64,000 nt of DNA from an uncultured Kordiimonas sp. (GTDB lineage: Bacteria; Pseudomonadota; Alphaproteobacteria; Sphingomonadales; Kordiimonadaceae): contig CANMRM010000001.1 of the NCBI GenBank assembly GCA_947500295.1, forward strand, positions 124,001 to 188,000, given 5' to 3'. Under the pieces are notes generated by a model, which worked only from the letters and a program-made list of their open reading frames with translations, had not been told where the DNA came from and did not search any database. Every line of letters starts with the position of its first letter. The first letter of the stretch is position 1. A program made the translations under genes and the position numbers. Positions 4,083 through 64,000 of the stretch are shown in pieces.

Positions 4083-5735
4083 ATGCAGAAAGCTTTTGTC
4101 ACATTGCCGTCGGGCCGCCAGGTCCATTATCGCACAGTGGGCACGGGTGCGCCGCTTGTGATGCTGCATCAGTCACCGCAGAACTCCGAGGCGCTAGAGC
4201 CTGCCATGCAGGTTTTCTCGGATGTTTGCGCCTGTTTTGCGCTAGACACACCCGGTTACGGCCTGTCGGACCCGCTTTTTGAGGCGGCGGAAACCATCGG
4301 CGATTACGCGGAAGCCACCATGGAGGCCATCGATGCATTGGGTTTCGACCGCTTCTGTCTTTACGGCGTGGCGACCGGGTCCCAGGTGGGTATTGAAATC
4401 GCCAAGCGATATCCGGACCGCGTTCATTTTCTGCTGCTTGATGCCAATGGTCACTTGTCCGCGGACGAGCGTGAGATCATCCTGGACGGCTATTTCCCCG
4501 ATGTGACGCCCAGAAGAGATGGTGGCCATCTGCTCACCTATTGGGATATGTGCAAGCAGCTTTTTGTGTCCTTTCCCTGGCACTCGGGACGGCAGGAAGA
4601 TCGCCTGCCCCTTGATCAACCACCAGCCGGGGTCATCCATACCATCCTCATGCGGTATCTGGACGCTGGAGAGGGCTACGCTGATGCGTACCGCATCGCG
4701 TTTGACACCGAGGACCGGGCCCATTTGGACGGCCTCGATGTACCAACAACCATGGTGCGCTGGGAAGGCAGTGCCGCCCTGTCGATGACCGACGCATTGC
4801 TGGCGCTGGGGCTGCCTGAGTGTGTGAAAGTGCTGAACGCCGGCCCTTCGATCGAAAAGCGATACGAGATCCAGCTTGATGCGCTCCGGCAAGCCGTTGC
4901 AAACCTGGATACAGCACAGGACACAACAGCCCTGGGCGCGCACAGTGACGGGTTTGAGCGGGCCTATATTGATGCAGGTGGCAAGCAATATCACTGTCGT
5001 ATGTCGCGCACAGGCAGTGGCCGCCCGCTTGTCCTGCTGCATGACCTGGGGCAATCGTCAGCGCAGCTTTTTCCCGCCATTCGGTCAGCTGTGGGTAAAC
5101 GCCCGGTTTTGGCGCTTGACCTGCCCGGCCACGGCGACAGTTCGCATGAGCCAGAGGTGCTGTCTGCCTTCGGCACTATGGCAATTCGCATCGCAGAGTT
5201 GGTGCAGAAGGCCGGGTTCGAAGGCGCCGACATTGTGGGCTATGGGTTTGGCGGCGCGTTGGCGATCAGCGTATCTGAAGGCATCAATGCACAGCGTGTG
5301 GTCGCCATTGACCCCCTTGTGCCGGATGACGCCGTGAAGTCTGCTACCCTGCAGTCAGGCGTGCCGGACCTTGAACCCCACCGCGATGGTCGCCATTTGC
5401 TCGCTGCTTTCACCATGGCGCGGGACGCAGAACTGTTCTGGCCCTGGTTTGACCAGCGAAAAACCTCTATTCGCCACAGGAATGCCAACCTCGATCCCGC
5501 GCACCTGCACCAGAAAACCGTCGACATCCTGAAAGCGGCGGGTTCATTCCAGCGCCTTACGGAGCACGCACTGTCGATCGAATGGAAAGCACTATTTGCT
5601 GAAGCTTCCGCTGACGTCACCGTCGCGGTGACGCAAGAGCATCCATGTCCCGGCTCTCTGAAGCCACTCACGCAGACGGTACAGGTACCGGCAGACCAAC
5701 AAGTGCAGCTTGCCGCGCTTGGACTGGTCGATTAA
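4083..5735 (+). CDS. Tandem alpha/beta-hydrolase-fold protein lacking both nucleophile serines
   Basis: The 550-residue protein contains two alpha/beta-hydrolase domains (about 1-275 and 290-550). Each begins with a strand-HG-like element (PLVMLHQSPQNS; PLVLLHDLGQSS), then a DTPGYGLSDP or DLPGHGDSS loop. Both halves share a PDxxPxRDGxHLL segment (138-151 and 427-440), pointing to an internal duplication. At the nucleophile elbow, where GxSxG is expected, the sequences are GVATG (95-99) and GYGFG (386-390), so the usual serine is Ala97 and Gly388. Classical serine-hydrolase activity is therefore doubtful. Function is unknown. It ends three bases before the convergent thioesterase gene. Confidence 0.8.
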   Translation: MQKAFVTLPSGRQVHYRTVGTGAPLVMLHQSPQNSEALEPAMQVFSDVCACFALDTPGYGLSDPLFEAAETIGDYAEATMEAIDALGFDRFCLYGVATGSQVGIEIAKRYPDRVHFLLLDANGHLSADEREIILDGYFPDVTPRRDGGHLLTYWDMCKQLFVSFPWHSGRQEDRLPLDQPPAGVIHTILMRYLDAGEGYADAYRIAFDTEDRAHLDGLDVPTTMVRWEGSAALSMTDALLALGLPECVKVLNAGPSIEKRYEIQLDALRQAVANLDTAQDTTALGAHSDGFERAYIDAGGKQYHCRMSRTGSGRPLVLLHDLGQSSAQLFPAIRSAVGKRPVLALDLPGHGDSSHEPEVLSAFGTMAIRIAELVQKAGFEGADIVGYGFGGALAISVSEGINAQRVVAIDPLVPDDAVKSATLQSGVPDLEPHRDGRHLLAAFTMARDAELFWPWFDQRKTSIRHRNANLDPAHLHQKTVDILKAAGSFQRLTEHALSIEWKALFAEASADVTVAVTQEHPCPGSLKPLTQTVQVPADQQVQLAALGLVD

Positions 5736-7363: not shown

Positions 7364-8062
7364 TTGAATACGCCGGTCAAAGATCATTTCCAGAGTCCCG
7401 AGCGTGCAAGGGAAATGGCCATGGAGGCCCTGAAACCGGGGCCGACAGCCACTGCGCCAATGTACTGGGACGGATTCATCCGCTTCATGCAGATTTTTCT
7501 GCCCATCGGGGCGCTTGTTCTGGGCTCTTTGACCATTGGCTGGCCGTTTCTCAACGACGCCGAAGTAAGCTTCACGCTTTCAAAGGACGATGTCGCCCGA
7601 TCCGACGGTGTGATCCGGATGACGAATATGAATTATGTTGGCACAGATGCGAAAGACCGGCTGTTTCGAATTCACGCAACCAGCGGTGAACAGGATAATC
7701 CCAATGCACCGCGAGTGCGCCTTGCCGACATTCATGCCGAAATGGAACTGAACGAGGGCCAAACCGCGACGGTTGATGCCCGGCGCGGGATATACCGCAC
7801 CAGGGACAATAGCCTGTCGCTTGTCGGCGGTGTAAACCTGCAAACCGGCAATGGCTATTTTCTGGAGATGTCAGGAGCAGAAATCGACCTTCGCACACGT
7901 GAAGCCACCGGGCAGGGCGATGTGAAAGGCAGAGCGGATCTGGGCACCCTGGAGGCCGCTCGCATGAGTTTGAATGTCCGGGACAAGGAAGCTGTATTCG
8001 AGGGCGGTGTGAAACTGCATATTGTTCCCCAAAGACCAGCGACGCAGAGCAGGAGCAGATGA
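7364..8062 (+). CDS. lptC: LPS export protein LptC
   Basis: LptC is the single-span periplasmic component that receives lipopolysaccharide from LptB2FG and passes it to LptA. The 232-residue product has a cytosolic N-tail, one membrane helix at about 38-60 (RFMQIFLPIGALVLGSLTIGW) and a beta-rich periplasmic domain ending FEGGVKLHIVP. The start is TTG at 7364 with AAGGA about ten bases upstream. Its stop overlaps the lptA start by four bases (ATGA), so the two are translationally coupled. Confidence 0.9.
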   Translation: MNTPVKDHFQSPERAREMAMEALKPGPTATAPMYWDGFIRFMQIFLPIGALVLGSLTIGWPFLNDAEVSFTLSKDDVARSDGVIRMTNMNYVGTDAKDRLFRIHATSGEQDNPNAPRVRLADIHAEMELNEGQTATVDARRGIYRTRDNSLSLVGGVNLQTGNGYFLEMSGAEIDLRTREATGQGDVKGRADLGTLEAARMSLNVRDKEAVFEGGVKLHIVPQRPATQSRSR

Positions 8063-56153: not shown

Positions 56154-57068
56154 TTAAAGGCTGTTGTAAACAAAGCTCAGGAAAGCCGCCGGCCAGTCAC
56201 CCCCGCCAGCGCCAAAGCTTTCCATAAAGTCATCAAGCACGCCCGCGCCCTGCACATCTTCAAGGCTGCTGCCACCAGCTTTCAGGTCCGCGACCCGGCC
56301 CCGCACCGTCACCAGCATGTCGCGGTAACGCATCAGCCCCTCACGGTCGGTCACGCGGCCATGGCCCGGGATGATCAGCGACGCGTCATCCACCATGCCC
56401 AGCACCTTGTTTGCGGTCGCAATCACACCGTCCACAGACCCGCCGTTGTCAACATCGATGAAAGGAAAACGGCCATTGAAGAAAGTGTCACCCATATGGA
56501 AGACGTTTGAGCCTTCAAAATGCACAATACTGTCCCCGTCCGTGTGCGCATTCGAGACATGGTGCATGCGCGTCTGCTCTCCGTTCAGGTGCAGCGCCGC
56601 TTCGTCATTGAACGTGACCACGGGCAGGGCATGGCCCTCTTGTGGTGGCGTCGTATTGTTGAACGCCTTGATCACAGACCCTGCCGCCATGCGAATGCGC
56701 ACATTGTCGTGCGCCACGATCACGGTGCCTTCCCGGCCAAGGTTTTCGTTCCCGCCGGTGTGGTCGCCGTGATAGTGCGTGTTGATGGCAAATCGTATCG
56801 GTTTGTCGGACAGTTCGGCAATCGCAGCCCTTATCTTGTCGGTAAGCGGCGCGAACTGGTCATCCACGATAAACACACCGTCGTCACCGACAGACACGCC
56901 TATGTTGCCGCCAGCGCCGTAGAGCACATGAATGTTGCCACGAACGGGCTCGCTGTTCACTTCAACAGCGTCCCAGTCCTGGGCTAAAACAGCCTGCGCA
57001 GATAAAACAGGCAGCAGCAAAGCGCCGGCTGCCACAGCAGCGGCAGTCTTCAGTTTTGTGATGGTCAC
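56154..57068 (-). CDS. Exported metallo-beta-lactamase-fold hydrolase
   Basis: The 304-residue protein has a signal peptide ending around AQAVLAQ, then an MBL domain with the zinc motif THYHGDHTGG, a second His in HTDGDSIVHF, MGDTFFNG and PGHG. Periplasmic subclass B3-like or related hydrolases have this form, but many such proteins are not beta-lactamases. The start is GTG at 57068 with a strong TAGGAGAG site; the frame extends 22 codons upstream. It is divergent from the ligase operon at 57326. Confidence 0.88.
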   Translation of the reverse strand: MTITKLKTAAAVAAGALLLPVLSAQAVLAQDWDAVEVNSEPVRGNIHVLYGAGGNIGVSVGDDGVFIVDDQFAPLTDKIRAAIAELSDKPIRFAINTHYHGDHTGGNENLGREGTVIVAHDNVRIRMAAGSVIKAFNNTTPPQEGHALPVVTFNDEAALHLNGEQTRMHHVSNAHTDGDSIVHFEGSNVFHMGDTFFNGRFPFIDVDNGGSVDGVIATANKVLGMVDDASLIIPGHGRVTDREGLMRYRDMLVTVRGRVADLKAGGSSLEDVQGAGVLDDFMESFGAGGGDWPAAFLSFVYNSL

Positions 57069-57325
57069 GATTACTCTCCTAGACCCGATTGTCACACCCA
57101 GCCGCCATCTTAGCGACCGGCGGGTGTACGTCAATCTTGCTCACGGTCAGTTGATCCTCGTGTTTGGTCCTGGTATCCCCATTGCCATTAAGCCGCCACG
57201 CTTGTGGTTTTTCATGATTTCGCTTTGCGGACGCGACTCTTTTTAGCTACACCGGAACCGGGTGTGCGCTTGGGGCCGGTTCGCTCCAATCGGGTACGCC
57301 GCCCTGAAGTCATAAAGAGGTTTCC

Positions 57326-58549
57326 ATGACCGACAAGAAAGTGATCGCCGTTGCCTTCGGCGGACGCAGCGTAGAACATGACGTAAGCATCCTGACGGGC
57401 CTGCAGTTCCTGGAAGCCCTCGACCCAACCCTTTATATGGGGTTGCCGCTATATGTAGACGCCCTCGGTCAATGGTGGACCGGAGAGGCTCTCAAAAGCC
57501 GGAGTGCCTACCCGGTGTCCGGCGCCGCCGCCGGCTTGACACAGGTTTCACTTGATCTCGCAGCGCCGGCAACAGGCCGACCCCGGCTCGCCTTTCAGAA
57601 AAAAGGGTTGATGGGAGAGAAAACCGATCATCTGGAATTCGACCTCATGGTCCCCGCGATCCATGGCTCCAACGGCGAAGACGGCACCCTGCAGGGTCTT
57701 CTGGAATTCGCAGGCATTCCCTTCGCGGGCTGCCGCACACTGGGCGCCGCCGCAACCATGAACAAGGAGTTTGCAAAAGCTGTCGCTCGGCTTGAAAATC
57801 TTTCTGTTCTGCCGGAGCTGACCGTTACCAAGCCCAAAAAAGGCAGTTTCCTGGATCCGGGAGTACTCAAGCAGGATCTAACGACTGCTCTCGGCGACGA
57901 TGCTTTCCCGGTAATCGCCAAACCCAGCAATCTGGGCTCCAGCGTTGGTGTTTCCAAAGCTGACGATATGGACGGCCTCATTGCCGCCCTTATGGCGATC
58001 TTCAGGCTCGATAGCTCGGCAATTGTCGAGCCGTTTGTCCAGAACCTCGTGGAGTATAATGTTGCGGTACGCCGCAACAGTGCGCTGGAAATTGAAACAT
58101 CCGCGGTCGAACGGCCCCTGAGTAAAACCGAAGTCCTCGACTTCAAAAACAAATATCTTGCGGGCGGCGAGCCGGGCGGCCCCAAGCTTGACACGGGCCC
58201 AAGCGAAGGCATGGCATCGCTCAATCGCGTGCTCAGCCCCGATGAGCTGACTGCCACGCAGGCGGCGCAGATTCACACGACATCGGCGAAACTGTTTGAT
58301 GCCCTGTCGCTTGCCGGCAGTGTGCGCATCGATTTTCTCTGCAACAGCGAAACCGGGGAAATCTGGTTCAATGAAGCCAATACCATTCCCGGTTCCTTTG
58401 CCTATTTCCTCTGGGAAGCGGCAGAAAAAAAAGTCAGCTTTCTGTCGCTCACGAGCGACATGATAGAAGAAGGGTTCCGACTGTCGGCAGAAAGACTTGG
58501 CGCAACGGATGCCGCCAGTGGCGGCGCAACCATTTTCAGCAAGGACTGA
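57326..58549 (+). CDS. D-alanine-D-alanine ligase-family ATP-grasp protein
   Basis: The 407-residue protein is a Ddl homologue: FGGRSVEHDVSILTG (catalytic Glu17), HGSNGEDGTLQGLLE (113-127), VIAKPSNLGSSVGVSK, a DFKNKYL omega-loop segment with Tyr277 corresponding to the Tyr of DdlB, and NEANTIPGSFAYFLWE (349-364) near the C-terminus. The family couples ATP to join two D-amino acids or D-Ala with D-lactate. It is longer than common Ddl (300-370), with an insertion around 170-190. It heads a coupled operon with a hydrolase and a membrane MurF-like ligase, so it may not be the housekeeping enzyme. Confidence 0.85.
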   Translation: MTDKKVIAVAFGGRSVEHDVSILTGLQFLEALDPTLYMGLPLYVDALGQWWTGEALKSRSAYPVSGAAAGLTQVSLDLAAPATGRPRLAFQKKGLMGEKTDHLEFDLMVPAIHGSNGEDGTLQGLLEFAGIPFAGCRTLGAAATMNKEFAKAVARLENLSVLPELTVTKPKKGSFLDPGVLKQDLTTALGDDAFPVIAKPSNLGSSVGVSKADDMDGLIAALMAIFRLDSSAIVEPFVQNLVEYNVAVRRNSALEIETSAVERPLSKTEVLDFKNKYLAGGEPGGPKLDTGPSEGMASLNRVLSPDELTATQAAQIHTTSAKLFDALSLAGSVRIDFLCNSETGEIWFNEANTIPGSFAYFLWEAAEKKVSFLSLTSDMIEEGFRLSAERLGATDAASGGATIFSKD

Positions 58550-58552
58550 GCC

Positions 58553-59320
58553 TTGGCCGGAACGGGCGACATGACATCCTGGCACGCCGTCACCAAAGGG
58601 AGTGGCTGCATCAGCTTTATCTGGCTGCACGGCTGGGGGCAGGACCTGACCGCCTTTGAGCGACTCTCTGACCTCATGGTCGCAGAAGGCCGTCACCAGC
58701 TTTTTGACCAGCCCGGTTTTGGCAAAACACCTATTGTCAGCCCGGGTGACGGCACCCGCGACTATGCGGACAAACTCGCGGCCATCCTCAGGGGTACGGG
58801 CCCCCATGTATTTGTCGGGCACAGTTTTGGCGTTCGGGTTTCGATCCAGCTTGCGGCTTACCACCCGGAACTTGTGTCCGCCATCATCGGGATATCCGGG
58901 GCAGGCCTGCAGCGCAAGCGCTCGCTCGCTTTCAAGGTGAGGGCCCGGCTGCTGCGTACCTGGGGGCAGCTTGTGCGGGTGATCGACAGATTTGCCGGAA
59001 CAGGCTTGCGGCAGCAGTTTGAAACCCGTTTTGGCAGCGTCGACTATAGAAACGCCGGGGATTTACGCTCCACCTTTGTCAAGGTTGTCAATGAAGACCT
59101 GAGCTCCGAGGCATCAAGGGTCAATTGCCCGGTTTGTCTGCTGTACGGCGAGAAGGACACCGAAACACCACCCGAATTTGGTGCCCGTTATCAGCGTTTG
59201 ATGAAGCAGGCAGAGTTTCATGAACTGCCGGGCTATGATCACTGGGATATCTTGACGCGCGGCGCCTATCAGTGCGAAGCGGTAATGAAGCGGTTTTTGG
59301 AGAAAACGAAGCAGCCATGA
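58553..59320 (+). CDS. Alpha/beta hydrolase
   Basis: The 255-residue protein has a complete catalytic set: oxyanion-region LHGWGQDL, nucleophile elbow VGHSFGVRV, acid region LLYGEKDTETP and base GYDHWDIL. No signal peptide is visible, so it is probably cytoplasmic. The substrate is unknown; between a Ddl-like and a MurF-like ligase it might hydrolyse a peptide, ester or thioester. The start appears to be TTG at 58553, seven bases after AAGGA; ATG at 58571 is an alternative. It overlaps the MurF-like gene by four bases. Confidence 0.85.
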   Translation: MAGTGDMTSWHAVTKGSGCISFIWLHGWGQDLTAFERLSDLMVAEGRHQLFDQPGFGKTPIVSPGDGTRDYADKLAAILRGTGPHVFVGHSFGVRVSIQLAAYHPELVSAIIGISGAGLQRKRSLAFKVRARLLRTWGQLVRVIDRFAGTGLRQQFETRFGSVDYRNAGDLRSTFVKVVNEDLSSEASRVNCPVCLLYGEKDTETPPEFGARYQRLMKQAEFHELPGYDHWDILTRGAYQCEAVMKRFLEKTKQP

Positions 59321-61077
59321 CTGATATTGCCGAGCTTGATCCCATTGTTGCAACCATCGCAGTCGTAATCGGGCTTGGCCTGTTGTGGTTTTCTTCCGCT
59401 CGCGGCGCGGCACTGATGATGTTCTTCCAGCAGGAAGAATATGACAACACACGCTTTGTTGTCTGGCTCAGGGACAAGCGGGCGTGGGACAAAACGGCCA
59501 GCATCTGGTTTCTGGCGGCAGCAACCCTGTCCGCTCTCCTGCAAAGTGATCTGGCGGGGGGGGTGCTGAATGCTGTGCCACAAATTGCCTTTCTGCCGCT
59601 TCTTGCCTTGCTTGCGGGCTGCGCCCTGGGCGTAATGCGATCAGCGTCGATGTTGCGCGACAACAAGAAACCGCTTGTGCGCACAGACCGCGTGAAACGC
59701 ATTCTTCGCATCTACTATGTCTTTGTTCTCGCCCTTGTTGGGCTGGCCTTTTTCATGGCGTCATGGGCTCCGGTCGGTGCCACTTACAGCGTGTCTTATA
59801 ATGAAGCGGCCGCAAGCTGGATGGACCGGCTTGAATTTTTGAGTCAAAGCCACGACTGGCGCTTTCCCGTGCTCGCCGCTCTTGCGTTTGGTATTGCTCA
59901 GGCTCTGCCGTTCCTGATCATAGCCGCCAACAAATTTCTCGAGCCTGTTGAAGAGCGTATCAAAGCGGGTTTTCGAAACGAAGCGGTCGAGAAACTCGCA
60001 AAACTATCTCCCAAGGTGGTGGCAATCACTGGTTCCTTTGGCAAAACCTCCACCAAACACATTCTGGCTCACATCCTTCAGTCAGCGGCCCCCACACTTG
60101 CCACACCCGGCAGCGTCAATACGGAAATGGGCATTACCCGTGTGATCCGCGAGCAGCTGACACCGGAACACCAGTTTTTCATTGTGGAAATGGGGGCTTA
60201 TGGCCCGGGCTCCATCGCACGGCTTTGCCGGTTGACGCCGCCTGACGTGGCACTTGTGACCGCCGTGGGCGCCGCACACTATGAACGCTTCAAAACGCTG
60301 GAAACCGTTGCCAAGGCCAAATTTGAAATCGCCGAAGCCGTTTTTGACAATGGCGGGCGCGCGGTTGTCAGCACCGATGGCATACCGTCACAATTGCGGG
60401 AAGAGCGCATGTCGGTGGTCACTGGTGATTATTTGCTGGCGGGCACGACGGGTGATATCCGGCAAAAACACTATGCGCTCACACCTGAAGGGTTGAAGAT
60501 AACTGTTGAGGAACTGGGCGAAGAACAAGTTCTGACCGTGCCGCTTTATGGCCAGCATCAGGCCGGCAATATTGTTATGGCTGCGGCAACTGCACGCGCG
60601 CTCGGCCTGCCATGGGCAGCCATAAAAGGGGCGCTTGCGACCATGCCGCAAATTCGGCACCGCCTTGAGGTGACCCGCTCAACTGACGCGCCCACCATCA
60701 TCAATGATGCCTACAATTCAAACCCTGTCGGGTTTGCCGCGGCGCTCGAATGCCTTGATGTGCTCGTCGAGGAAGGTGGGCGGCGCATCCTGATCACGCC
60801 GGGCATGGTAGAGCTCGGCGACCTGCATGAGGCTGAGCACGAGCGACTTGGAAAGCTGACGGTCAAACATGCTGACATCGTGTGTGTCGTGACACCTGAT
60901 CGCATCCCAAGCTACGTAGGCGGCCTCGAGGCCGAAAATGATGGAACCGTCACCGTGATGACGTTTGCAACGCAGGAAGCCGCGGAAACCTGGGTCAAAA
61001 ACAACTGGAAAGCGCCCGACGCTGTCTTGTTCGAAAACAACCTGCCGGACCTTTACGAAGCGCAAGTTCGCTTCTAG
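59317..61077 (+). CDS. Membrane-anchored MurF-like Mur ligase
   Basis: The 586-residue protein has an N-terminal membrane domain of about 210 residues with some five hydrophobic helices (about 8-28, 61-80, 88-108, 130-152, 184-204), then a Mur ligase: P-loop VVAITGSFGKTSTK (239-247), FIVEMGAYGPGSI, NIVMAAATARALG and INDAYNSNPVGF, equivalent to the MurF DxYNANP motif. MurF normally adds D-Ala-D-Ala to UDP-MurNAc-tripeptide and is soluble, about 450 residues. The membrane domain is therefore unusual. The ATG overlaps the hydrolase stop by four bases. It may use the product of the Ddl-like gene. Confidence 0.85.
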   Translation: MTDIAELDPIVATIAVVIGLGLLWFSSARGAALMMFFQQEEYDNTRFVVWLRDKRAWDKTASIWFLAAATLSALLQSDLAGGVLNAVPQIAFLPLLALLAGCALGVMRSASMLRDNKKPLVRTDRVKRILRIYYVFVLALVGLAFFMASWAPVGATYSVSYNEAAASWMDRLEFLSQSHDWRFPVLAALAFGIAQALPFLIIAANKFLEPVEERIKAGFRNEAVEKLAKLSPKVVAITGSFGKTSTKHILAHILQSAAPTLATPGSVNTEMGITRVIREQLTPEHQFFIVEMGAYGPGSIARLCRLTPPDVALVTAVGAAHYERFKTLETVAKAKFEIAEAVFDNGGRAVVSTDGIPSQLREERMSVVTGDYLLAGTTGDIRQKHYALTPEGLKITVEELGEEQVLTVPLYGQHQAGNIVMAAATARALGLPWAAIKGALATMPQIRHRLEVTRSTDAPTIINDAYNSNPVGFAAALECLDVLVEEGGRRILITPGMVELGDLHEAEHERLGKLTVKHADIVCVVTPDRIPSYVGGLEAENDGTVTVMTFATQEAAETWVKNNWKAPDAVLFENNLPDLYEAQVRF

Positions 61078-61087
61078 TCAGCACACG

Positions 61088-61921
61088 CTATTCTTTGGAA
61101 ACGTCGATGCGCTCCAGGTTAACGCGGGCAGCATCTGCATCCGGGCCCACCTCGCCAAGTGACAAAACTTTCAACCATGCTTGCCGGGCAGCAGGCTGGT
61201 CACCCTGCGCATCTTTCAGGTTCCCAAGCTCCAGATAGGCGGAGGCGTCTTCCGGATAAACCTCCAGATACTGGTCAAGCGCCACCTCTGCCCGCTCATA
61301 GTCTTCAAGCGCCCGGGCCGCAGACGCAATGAAAAGCAAAAGATCCGTCCGGTCGCGGTTTGATCGATAGACAAAATCGAGTTCCTCAAGCGCAAGGGTA
61401 AAATCACCTTCTGCGGCAGCAATGTAGGCGCGGTCTTCACGGATTGAATGCTCCAGTGCCGTGTTTTCAGGTACGATGGCGAGGGCCTGTCCAATCGCAG
61501 CCTCTGCCCGCTCGAACTCCCGGCCCCTCAGCCAGGCATTGGCCGCCTGCCGGAATGTGTCGGCCAGCATACCCGCACTTGCTGTTGTGCGTTCATCGCC
61601 GCGCACGGGCATACCACGTCCGATGCGCATGTCCTCTGCAATGCCCTCCAGCCGAATGGCTGCTTCAGCAAATTCACCCGCGAAAAAAAGCCCCAGGGCC
61701 TCGCAGTGGCGAGCCGGCACACCACCACCCTGCAGTTGCCACTCCAGTGCCTTGTTGATCCCTCGGTCTGGAGCCTGCTCGGCTACCCGGATGCAGGCTT
61801 CATAGCGGTCTTCTTCACCTGATGTTGATTGCGCCCGCACGCCAACGGGGCTGGCGAACAGCGGCAAAATGGCTATGGTGGCCGCAGGCAATAGCCTGAT
61901 ATGTCTGAGGCGGGCTTTCAT
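61088..61921 (-). CDS. Exported TPR-repeat protein
   Basis: The 277-residue product starts with a probable signal peptide (MKARLRHIRLLPAATIAILPLF ... VRAQS) and is otherwise alpha-helical repeats. At least three TPR-like units are visible, for example NAWLRGREFERAEAAIGQALAIVPENTAL and EDYERAEVALDQYLEVYPEDASAYLELGNLKDAQGDQPAARQAW. Such proteins commonly scaffold envelope complexes; the partner is unknown. The start is uncertain: the frame extends another 20 codons. It is convergent with the MurF-like gene, ten bases apart. Confidence 0.75.
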   Translation of the reverse strand: MKARLRHIRLLPAATIAILPLFASPVGVRAQSTSGEEDRYEACIRVAEQAPDRGINKALEWQLQGGGVPARHCEALGLFFAGEFAEAAIRLEGIAEDMRIGRGMPVRGDERTTASAGMLADTFRQAANAWLRGREFERAEAAIGQALAIVPENTALEHSIREDRAYIAAAEGDFTLALEELDFVYRSNRDRTDLLLFIASAARALEDYERAEVALDQYLEVYPEDASAYLELGNLKDAQGDQPAARQAWLKVLSLGEVGPDADAARVNLERIDVSKE

Positions 61922-61970
61922 GCGGCGGACAGTGCGCAAAAGCAATGGCAATTTCAAGGCGGAAAATGAA

Positions 61971-62849
61971 ATGGAACACAAGATGCCGGAGCAACCTCAT
62001 CTGTTGGTGTTTGGGCCCGGCTACAGTGCCGAGCCCTTTATGCAGCGGGCGCTTGAAAGCGGCTGGAAGGTTTCTGCGACCTGGCGGCGCCCGGAAGCGA
62101 AAGCGGAATTGCGGGCGCACGGCATTACACCCGTGGAATTTGACACCGGCGCTAACCTGCCGGGCGACACAACGCATTGCCTGGTCTCCATCGCACCGCG
62201 CCCCGAAGGCGATCCCGTGCTCAATGCCTTCGGTCTGCAACTAAGAAGCCAGCGGGCGCTGCGCTGGGTTGGCTATCTCTCGAGCACCAATGTGTACGGC
62301 GATCATGAAGGGGCATGGGTTGATGAGACGTCGCTGACGCAGCCAAGTCTCGACCGCGGCAAAAGGCGGCTTTTGGCGGAAGACGCCTGGACGGAATTGG
62401 GGTTCGCTGTCGGCGCTGCTGTGCATATCTTCAGGCTCGCGGGCATATATGGGCCCGGGAAAAATGCGATCCGGTCCGTATTGGACGGCAAGGCACGCAG
62501 GGTGATCAAGCCGGGGCAGGTATTTGGCCGCATTCACCGGGACGACATCGCGGACGCTCTTTGGCGGGCGGCGCAATCAGGCCTGCCCAGCAACGTGTTC
62601 AACCTTGCGGACGACCTGCCATCACCGCCGCAGGATGTGATAGAAGCGGCCTCAAGGCTTTTGGGCGTTGACCCGCCACCCGCGGTATCGCTTGATGATG
62701 CAGACCTGAGCCCGATGGGGCGCAGTTTTTACGCAGAAAACAAAAGGGTCAGCAACCAGAAAGCTAAGGACCTGCTCGGGTGGGACCCCGCATGGCCTGA
62801 CTATCACCAGGCGTTAGCAAAACTGCTCAAGGAAGAAACCGGCGGATAA
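61971..62849 (+). CDS. SDR-family NAD(P)-binding protein (YeeZ-like)
   Basis: The 292-residue protein has a degenerate Rossmann start LLVFGPGYSAEPFMQRALESGW, WRRPEAKAELRAHGI, then VGYLSSTNVYGDHEGAWVDET and RLAGIYGPGKNAI, as in extended SDR proteins of the YeeZ type. The substrate is unknown. ATG at 61971 has AAGGCGGA upstream; the frame runs a further 34 codons into the divergent TPR gene. Confidence 0.85.
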   Translation: MEHKMPEQPHLLVFGPGYSAEPFMQRALESGWKVSATWRRPEAKAELRAHGITPVEFDTGANLPGDTTHCLVSIAPRPEGDPVLNAFGLQLRSQRALRWVGYLSSTNVYGDHEGAWVDETSLTQPSLDRGKRRLLAEDAWTELGFAVGAAVHIFRLAGIYGPGKNAIRSVLDGKARRVIKPGQVFGRIHRDDIADALWRAAQSGLPSNVFNLADDLPSPPQDVIEAASRLLGVDPPPAVSLDDADLSPMGRSFYAENKRVSNQKAKDLLGWDPAWPDYHQALAKLLKEETGG

Positions 62850-62866
62850 CACCGGCGCCCTGATGC

Positions 62867-63370
62867 TCAGGCCATTTCATCCACCTGATCATAGGTCATG
62901 GTGCCGGGAATGATGAACACCGGGCAAGGCAGGTGACTGATTGCGGTGCCAGTGAAGTAGTCCACGAGCGGGCCGGGGCCGCCGTCGTCGCCAGCCCCCA
63001 GAACCAGGCCAAAAATATCGTCACGTGATTCCAGGTATTTGACCATCGCTTCCTGCGGATCACCCTCAACTACGGCCATTTCCGGCTCAACGCCACAATA
63101 GTCATGCAACTGTTGCGCGACACCGGACAGGAGTTCTTCCGCTTCTTCGAACGCTTCTTCCCGCATGCGATCAGCAACAGCCATCCAGTGCTGAAACTCG
63201 CCCGGGCGGATACAATGGAAAAGGATGAGGCCACCGCCTGTGATATGCACGGCGCGCGCGGCGGCAAAACGAATTGCCACCTTGCTTTCCGGCGAATCGT
63301 CAACCACCACCACAAGTTTGCGATGGCGTTTGGCCACTGGCCGGATCGGACCGTGAATATCTTCAACCAA
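62867..63370 (-). CDS. Universal stress protein family protein
   Basis: The 167-residue protein has one USP domain after an N-tail of about 20 residues: RKLVVVVDDSPESKVAIRFAAARAVHI, VVEGDPQEAMVKYLESRDDIFGLVLGAG and HLPCPVFIIPG. The GxxGxxxxG-like ATP loop is altered to VLGAGDDGGPGPLVDYFTG. The start is uncertain: TTG at 63370 has GAAGGGGA upstream, while the frame opens at a TTG at 63421 without such a site. Confidence 0.82.
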   Translation of the reverse strand: MVEDIHGPIRPVAKRHRKLVVVVDDSPESKVAIRFAAARAVHITGGGLILFHCIRPGEFQHWMAVADRMREEAFEEAEELLSGVAQQLHDYCGVEPEMAVVEGDPQEAMVKYLESRDDIFGLVLGAGDDGGPGPLVDYFTGTAISHLPCPVFIIPGTMTYDQVDEMA

Positions 63371-63451
63371 GCCTTTGTCCCCTTCAGTGCCTAGCTTGGC
63401 AGGCAAATGCGCTGCTTGCAAGCCGCGAAAGCACCGACAATGCCTAGCGGG

Positions 63452-64000
63452 TTACTTCAGCAGGATATTGCTGACCTCACGCAACTGAGTGCGTGCTCTC
63501 AACAGGTAAAAGCCTTGCATCGACAGATGATTGGCCAGAATACCGTCCACTGCGCCATTGGCGACAATCAGGGGGTCCAGCGTTGCAGCTGAGCTCATTG
63601 ACTTCAGAAGGTCGTCATAAAGCGCGGCAATTTCGCGGTTTTCGATCACATCCGCAAAATCCTTGCGAATCGCCTTCAGAAGGATCGTGTAGGCATAGAC
63701 CTGCCCCTTCACCTGATAAAAAAGGTCGTCCGCGCCAAAGTCCGGCACAATGCCGCCGGCGTGATCACCAATATAGGTATCAAGCGATGCAGAGGATGCA
63801 CCGAGGTCCAGCGCGATCCGGTCAAGGGTCGCAAGCAGATTGTCCGACCGGCGGTCAAACACCGACTGGCCTGTGCCCAGCTGCGCGTTGTAGCTTTCCA
63901 GCTGACCCAGAGCTTCCATATAATACTGGTCCGAAGGCTTGGTTGGCAGAAGGCTGGTGGACATGTCGATGATCCAGCGCTCAGGCTCGATCGAGAGGTT
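63452..64000 (-). CDS. DUF2333 family protein, C-terminal part (cut by window edge)
   Basis: The frame is open across the right edge, so the true start lies outside. The visible 182 residues begin NLSIEPERWIIDMSTSLLPTKPSDQYY and continue GTGQSVFDRRSDNLLATLDRIALDLGASSASL, ending with QGFYLLRARTQLREVSNILLK. This matches my recollection of the C-terminal half of DUF2333 proteins, in which a single membrane span sits near the N-terminus. Function is unknown. Confidence 0.75.
   Translation of the reverse strand, partial: NLSIEPERWIIDMSTSLLPTKPSDQYYMEALGQLESYNAQLGTGQSVFDRRSDNLLATLDRIALDLGASSASLDTYIGDHAGGIVPDFGADDLFYQVKGQVYAYTILLKAIRKDFADVIENREIAALYDDLLKSMSSAATLDPLIVANGAVDGILANHLSMQGFYLLRARTQLREVSNILLK

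Follow-up and report, generated by a model that had tools for sequence, protein, structure and literature searches.

The 64,000-nucleotide stretch of an uncultured Kordiimonas sp. analyzed here (contig CANMRM010000001.1, positions 124,001 to 188,000; "the window" below) carries three closely packed genes on its + strand between positions 57326 and 61077. The first, ddl (57326..58549, +, 407 aa; alignment A3), encodes a Ddl homologue with the Pfam domains PF01820 and PF07478. The second (58553..59320, +, 255 aa) encodes an alpha/beta hydrolase matching Abhydrolase_6 and Abhydrolase_1. The third (59317..61077, +, 586 aa) encodes a membrane MurF-type ligase, referred to as TM-MurF, with Mur_ligase_M and Mur_ligase_C domains. 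Pfam and NCBIfam were concordant on the families of all three. The TTG start of the hydrolase lies 3 bp past the ddl stop, with an alternative ATG start at 58571, 18 bp further, and inspection of the junction DNA showed that the ATGA of the ligase shares 4 nt with the hydrolase stop. Coordinates and junctions therefore agree with the tight operon proposed in a preliminary description of this locus. Its reading of the products as a Ddl homologue, a hydrolase with a catalytic triad, and a Mur ligase with a membrane domain is borne out by Pfam, alignment, and hydropathy, the membrane domain being a prediction.

The same description suggested that the trio might be extra copies beside a housekeeping ddl and murF in the dcw cluster, and this proved incorrect. 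The dcw genes of this genome (stretch L017; names assigned by eye from the translations) run mraZ, mraW, ftsI, murE, mraY, murD, ftsW, murG, murC, murB, ftsQ, ftsA, ftsZ. There is no space for murF, as murE ends at 7596 and mraY starts at 7601, nor for ddl between murB and ftsQ. Genome-wide searches with the Ddl and MurF families returned the trio as the best match and turned up neither a further Ddl nor a further MurF in the assembly (13 contigs, 100% complete by the tool's figure), the very outcome that the preliminary description had named as refuting its proposal. Therefore, the trio enzymes are the housekeeping ones here, and the replacement of Ddl and MurF by the trio in this genome is well supported by the genome evidence. 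Two frames considered as extra Ddls, C1:810779 and C1:772789, were judged by eye to be other ATP-grasp proteins, with no Ddl N-terminal motif seen. The other Mur-family matches were rejected as MurF, being MurE, MurD, MurC, a pair of cyanophycin type, and a frame of 456 aa that we took as FolC-like.

A cyanophycin-type locus was recognized by eye elsewhere in the genome (L020:2319-8708; G000:C1, ~1.31 Mb), with cyanophycinase-like, cyanophycin synthetase-like, second Mur-type ligase, and isoaspartyl-peptidase-like genes. Cyanophycin or another peptide polymer, mentioned earlier as a possible role of the trio, was set aside. Likewise, the trio was rejected as a cyanophycin synthetase, since its ATP-grasp and Mur ligase parts are not in one chain.

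The ligase resembles MurF more than any other Mur enzyme. Its best NCBIfam match was the murF model with 228 bits, followed by murC (78), murD (73), and the murE models (58-71); the resemblance to MurT was weak (32 bits). A fold search with the whole ligase also gave MurF as the closest structure, although this search barely probed the membrane domain itself. The score of 228 bits lies under the murF cut-off of 288.6, as do those of the scored copies in relatives. The best named match (76%) came from an uncultured Kordiimonas; values of 68-77% were obtained with the six closest genomes. The Mur ligase middle domain (60025..60594, +, PF08245) contains the P-loop G239-S245, E291, H321, and K335, and the C-terminal domain (60658..61032, +, PF02875) contains the MurF-type motif DAYNSNP (464-470). 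These motifs were assigned by alignment with E. coli MurF 1gg4, and the aligned residues presumably have the same catalytic roles. The P-loop, Glu, His, Lys, and DxYNxNP motifs are conserved across 86 ligase sequences.

The N-terminal part of the ligase is unlike MurF. Approximately residues 1-218 (59317..59970, +) form a domain with five membrane helices predicted from hydropathy and a model; in the model, helices prevail over these 218 residues, with two strands at 153-161 and 172-180. The domain had no Pfam match at E 0.1 and no PDB sequence match at E 1. PF01225, which binds uridine diphosphate-N-acetylmuramic acid (UDP-MurNAc), was unmatched in the ligase, while a control MurF (from the relative G010) and the MurE of the same genome matched it. 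Two loops are predicted to face the cytoplasm. The first, from R29 to D58 (59401..59490, +), contains FFQQEEYDxxRFxxW; R29, Q38, Q39, Y42, and D58 are kept in 85 of the 86 sequences, the remaining row being gapped. The second (59665..59700, +) reads KKPLVxTxRxxR, with K118, T123, and R125 kept in 86/86 and K117 in 85/86. With some ten near-invariant residues and no family match, the membrane domain is, as judged from sequence, a new protein part.

We followed the trio through a sample of 59 genomes of the order, including the genome of the window (G000). TM-MurF was found in 42 genomes and was missing from 17. No carrier (0 of 42) had a Ddl over the family cut-off, whereas 14 of the 17 non-carriers did; among the non-carrier exceptions, G030 has a Ddl just under the cut-off, and G048 and G058 gave no Ddl at E 1e-20. 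All 42 carriers have the long Ddl, which is partial only in G009, G042, and G056. The order is ddl, hydrolase, ligase wherever Ddl and ligase share a contig; the two lie on separate, short contigs in G029, G036, and G042.

Canonical MurF scored over its cut-off in 24 carriers and 14 non-carriers, the three other non-carriers having MurF fragments at contig ends. We scored murF from the murE-mraY gap and the motifs, a MurF being called intact if it exceeded the family cut-off and kept the P-loop, NNxxG, Glu, His, and Lys. G019 was counted as intact despite Lys for the first Asn of DxYNxNP; G009, G040, and G056, in which murF was not seen or incomplete, were left unscored. Canonical murF was absent or catalytically decayed in 15 of the 39 scorable carriers versus none of the 17 non-carriers. 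Eight carriers have no MurF at all (G000, G003, G013, G014, G015, G017, G018, and G033), and seven have a decayed frame. The latter is shortened to ~330 aa in G001 and G011; the P-loop, NNxxG, Lys, and DxYNxNP are lost in G021 and G028; and NNxxG is missing from G004, G008, and G026, with Arg for His in G004 and Lys for Glu in G008 and G026. The motifs were kept in all eight non-carrier MurFs tabulated. Dead or absent murF fell at seven places of a murE+mraY tree (G021/G028, G026, G001/G011, G004, G008, the G000 clade, and G033), or at six according to the ligase tree, which puts G026 with G021/G028. Several deep nodes of the murE+mraY tree are weak; the close pairs G004-G002, G008-G007, and G033-G045/G050 are supported at 0.97-0.99.

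The decayed murF frames stay in the murE-mraY gap as open reading frames (L112, L114, L120, L121, L123, L124, L125, and L268). Several retain a CTCLxADIxGxxVTYK-like stretch, which hints at a leftover non-catalytic role. Side-by-side pairs of additional Ddl-like ATP-grasp frames were also seen in two carriers (G033:C1:2731979-2733741 and G034:C27:86576-88458).

A wider scan, of a species-genome collection, gave 461 relatives, the best 80 of which were fetched as outside loci. These 80 include Kordiimonas, Iodidimonas, Rhodothalassium, Labrys, Azospirillum halopraeferens, Blastochloris sulfoviridis, metagenome-assembled genomes (MAGs) of Micavibrio and Rickettsiales, and Desulfovibrio sp. A2. 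Neighbors were annotated at 23 of the 80 loci, and 18 of the corresponding genomes were searched for MurF. No canonical MurF over the cut-off was found in 17 of the 18. In 12 (G059-G068, G073, and G074), including two Labrys, Azospirillum, Blastochloris, and Desulfovibrio A2, murE and mraY lie in one stretch with no MurF-matching frame between them, a negative that, where 283-500 bp separate the two genes (G060, G064, and G066), does not extend to small open reading frames. In G069, G070, G071, and G072, murE and mraY were not seen in one stretch, and G075 has a dead 375-aa MurF remnant in the gap. G076, with an intact MurF at 396 bits, served as the positive control. This genome, labeled Opitutales, was rejected as a counterexample: the dcw cluster on its MurF contig is unlike the alphaproteobacterial one, the trio is on another contig, and the assembly is a probable mixed bin. 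In 8 of the 23 annotated loci, and in G343 as a further case, the trio lies inside dcw: its Ddl takes the ddl position before ftsQ, and between this Ddl and murB, encoded on the other strand, are the hydrolase and ligase.

Trio copies from MAGs labeled Opitutales, Acidobacteriaceae, and Bryobacterales (L213/L265, L228, and L247) nest among alphaproteobacterial ones and are probably mixed bins or transfers; the labels Acidobacteria, Bryobacterales, and Deltaproteobacteria on MAGs are, in our view, doubtful. Between murE and mraY, G061 and G063 have open reading frames of ~160 aa (L261:4623-5096 and L260:10826-11308), which look alike by eye and gave no significant match to MurF.

Among 289 alphaproteobacteria, TM-MurF was present in 14. 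A single MurF-family match, of TM-MurF strength, was obtained at E 1e-45 for 11 of the 14 carriers, and 5 of the 275 non-carriers had none (Fisher's p = 6e-14, uncorrected for ancestry); the best five candidates per genome were scored, and the places of the single matches were not all listed. A phylum sample contained TM-MurF in 6 of 397 genomes, all alphaproteobacteria. The trio Ddl was the sole Ddl match at E 1e-25 in most of the 31 carriers outside the order. The samples overlap, G074 and G304 matching at the same place and L222, L223, and L202 being the loci of G122, G274, and G115. Of the homologues extracted, the alignments A1, A2, and A3 include 29 of 39, 27 of 37, and 25 of 37, respectively, plus the row of the window itself.

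Desulfovibrio sp. A2 was compared with its family (59 genomes). Of the 58 others, four had no MurF match at E 1e-35 and 54 had one, which in 50 exceeded the cut-off. In Desulfovibrio sp. A2, TM-MurF was the single MurF and the trio Ddl the single Ddl to be found, murF was missing between murE and mraY, and the A2 TM-MurF nests among alphaproteobacterial copies in the ligase tree. The simplest account would be that A2 acquired the cassette and then lost its native genes. It seems that the cassette has moved between lineages and across phyla.

The trio Ddl belongs to a distinct long subfamily, exceeding by ~100 residues the Ddls that trio-free relatives have in dcw (mostly open frames of 307-333 aa). 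It scored 201.8 on TIGR01205, under the cut-off of 245.65, and exceeded the cut-offs of both PF01820 and PF07478. The Glu, Ser, and omega-loop Lys-Tyr residues are retained. The latter pair, K276-Y277 (58151..58156, +), aligns with the KY of canonical Ddls and is present in every one of the 26 rows of A3; among 65 further Ddls, 61 have it and four were unmatched by the pattern used. We take this pair to go with D-Ala-D-Ala ligases, and by this rule the omega loop would speak for D-Ala-D-Ala. The trio Ddls differ from canonical-type Ddls by an insertion that lengthens the omega loop and by a remodeled acceptor-side loop, PGSFAYFLW in the window (58388..58414, +). The acceptor-side loop is a shorter PGSxxxxLW in 13/13 trio Ddls, in comparison with PGxTxxS or PGFSxxS in 18 canonical-type Ddls. 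In seven loci of relatives (L226, at 4305-5168, L218, L210, L213, L236, L241, and L207), including three of Labrys and one of Blastochloris, tblastn placed a VanX-like dipeptidase gene beside the trio Ddl or the hydrolase-ligase pair; Pfam confirmed PF01427 for the L226 copy only. Hence, the VanX comparison drawn in the preliminary description was apt, and no VanX-like gene was matched within the 64-kb window.

For the hydrolase, the putative triad Ser91, Asp202, and His230, assigned by motif, is invariant in 28 aligned rows. Its AlphaFold2 model (predicted local distance difference test score, pLDDT, 94) shows a generic alpha/beta hydrolase fold, and the top 50 hits of the fold searches were generic esterases, lipases, and the like. 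Of the 80 outside loci, 77 have upstream room; among them, 75 have the hydrolase upstream of the ligase on the same strand, at most 0.4 kb away (74 counted by script plus L218, whose frames overlap). The distance is 2.7 kb in L212. The hydrolase accompanies the ligase even in Labrys loci without a nearby Ddl; it is tied to the ligase more tightly than the Ddl is. The pairing is beyond what chance would give, and the trio is conserved across genomes. Around the trio of the window, at 56154-57134 and 61088-63964, are metallo-beta-lactamase-fold, TPR, epimerase-like, Usp, and DUF2333 genes. They hold their position in most of the family-f1 loci examined, so that the synteny extends past the trio.

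Taken together, the operon is quite probably a self-contained, transferable module of D-Ala-D-Ala synthesis and addition that stands in for Ddl and MurF in this genome. In the first step, the Ddl would make the dipeptide, as its family and sole-copy status suggest. In the second, the ligase would activate the meso-diaminopimelate carboxyl of the muramoyl-tripeptide with ATP and add the dipeptide in place of MurF. This replacement is proposed because the catalytic residues are conserved and murF loss or decay occurs, within the order, only among carriers; that the added dipeptide is D-Ala-D-Ala is what we infer from the replacement of murF in the genomes. In the third step, the acceptor would be the lipid-linked tripeptide (lipid I or II) formed after MraY has used UDP-MurNAc-tripeptide. 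We give this acceptor an even chance, because a membrane domain whose Arg, Lys, and Gln are near-invariant at the predicted cytoplasmic face stands where MurF has its UDP-binding domain. According to PMC4987650, B. subtilis MraY has an activity merely 17% lower on the nucleotide without D-Ala-D-Ala; therefore, MraY first and the ligase second would be feasible. The full scheme, in which the last two stem residues are added after lipid loading, the pathway order is reversed, and the cassette displaces ddl and murF, would fall marginally short of an even chance. Finally, and speculatively, the hydrolase would most likely edit or clean up a product or precursor, ester editing in particular being rather unlikely.

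The same job could be done on a soluble substrate, which is a serious possibility, if a somewhat less than even one. The ligase would then convert UDP-MurNAc-tripeptide at the membrane and pass UDP-MurNAc-pentapeptide to MraY, its membrane domain docking MraY or MurG and its loops binding the nucleotide or pyrophosphate. The order of steps would remain unchanged, the trio within dcw near murB and murC in 8/23 annotated loci is in line with this, and pyrophosphate is present in both carriers. However, such a ligase would need to recognize UDP-MurNAc with PF01225 unmatched, a domain that the control MurF and MurE do match, and with 218 N-terminal residues that are mostly helical in the model and have no family match.

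Since the acceptor loop of the Ddl is changed and a VanX-like gene is present in seven loci, an altered dipeptide is possible; the trio Ddl may even make a depsipeptide. A module making and adding D-Ala-D-X (X not D-Ala), in the manner of van clusters, with native Ddl and MurF lost together, nevertheless seems unlikely. The rebuilt loop in 13/13 trio Ddls, the PF01427-like gene adjoining the cluster, and Desulfovibrio sp. A2, which shows only the trio Ddl and ligase, are consistent with it. The omega-loop Lys-Tyr (26/26 A3 rows and 61/65 further Ddls) and the window without a VanX-like gene argue for an ordinary terminus, as does the trio Ddl alongside canonical MurF in 24 genomes of the order. 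MurF tolerates other C-terminal residues, which softens this last argument.

It is very improbable that the ligase has an accessory role, loading the dipeptide on another carrier or on recycled peptide and leaving murF-less carriers with no pentapeptide. Both ligases are present in 24 carriers of the order, but murF loss tracks trio carriage, and the murF-less carriers with dcw inspected retain ftsI, murE, mraY, and murD. The FtsI transpeptidase requires pentapeptide donors, which also counts against this role. The coupled Ddl/MurF-type route with a predicted membrane domain that had been suggested earlier stands, but its standing as a second, special-purpose pathway is hardly credible: relatives such as G010 have both MurF types, but no housekeeping ddl or murF was found in this genome, which refutes the idea here unless both genes are missing from the assembly.

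Several observations weigh against replacement by a lipid-linked route. First, 24 of the 39 scorable carriers hold an intact canonical MurF; therefore, the ligase would there be redundant or serve some additional role. Of the carriers in the class sample, G173 and G240 have a stronger second MurF besides TM-MurF, intact in G173, and G261 is ambiguous. A second Ddl exceeds the cut-off in G063 and G274 and is just under it in G076, with weaker extras in G115 and G071, and in the genome of the window, the two ATP-grasp proteins judged by eye not to be Ddl score 81.6 and 68 bits on the Ddl family. Incomplete assemblies could mimic murF loss; the murE-mraY junctions, however, lie in long contigs. 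As regards the acceptor, PMC4987650 also cites an older study in which the nucleotide without D-Ala-D-Ala was a much weaker MraY substrate. The lipid carrier is proposed from the missing domain and the conserved loops alone, and the five-helix topology with its cytoplasmic loops is predicted. In L239, and in G261 from another sample, no hydrolase was found near the ligase.

For walled bacteria, MurF is considered essential, and it is a drug-target candidate. Bacteria without detectable MurF, several of them cultured, seem to rely on a membrane enzyme with a different architecture, which suggests an unrecognized route through one of the best-studied bacterial pathways. If the ligase acts on the lipid-linked tripeptide, the order of MurF before MraY would not be fixed. 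For the carrier groups, surveys of gene content would mislead, whether they record murF as missing or go by its name to call it present. No description of a membrane MurF or of the trio was found in the literature by title and start of abstract, a search that did not cover most subscription papers.

Compared with known systems, the ligase is like MurF in its middle and C-terminal domains, P-loop, Glu/His/Lys positions, DxYNxNP motif, and closest fold. It differs from MurF in the lack of the UDP-MurNAc-binding domain, the predicted five-helix membrane domain, the score under the cut-off, and the operon that it shares with a dedicated Ddl and a hydrolase. The trio Ddl shares both Pfam domains and the Glu/Ser/Lys-Tyr residues with Ddl, but it is ~100 residues longer, with an omega insertion and a rebuilt acceptor loop. 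The van clusters likewise combine a Ddl-type ligase with a VanX-like dipeptidase gene, as seen in the seven relatives; here, however, the usual partners are a Mur ligase and an alpha/beta hydrolase, and the window has no VanX-like gene. Furthermore, the omega loop of the trio Ddl lacks the VanA-type His or Phe that marks D-Lac/D-Ser-type enzymes, and its Tyr is invariant in A3. MurT, according to PMC6085368, is a Mur-type ligase acting on lipid I and II and not on UDP precursors. TM-MurF similarly has no UDP domain and perhaps a lipid-linked substrate. MurT, however, amidates D-Glu with GatD, whereas no glutamine amidotransferase domain, and thus no GatD-type partner, was found in the ten proteins scanned (the trio and its neighbors). 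An alternative lipid II synthase able to substitute for MurG (PMC8092295) is likewise an alternative enzyme for an essential wall step, but for another step. Probably working like MurF yet without the MurF domain PF01225, the ligase is best read as a substitute for MurF that is embedded in the membrane and encoded in a transferable cassette of Ddl, hydrolase, and ligase.

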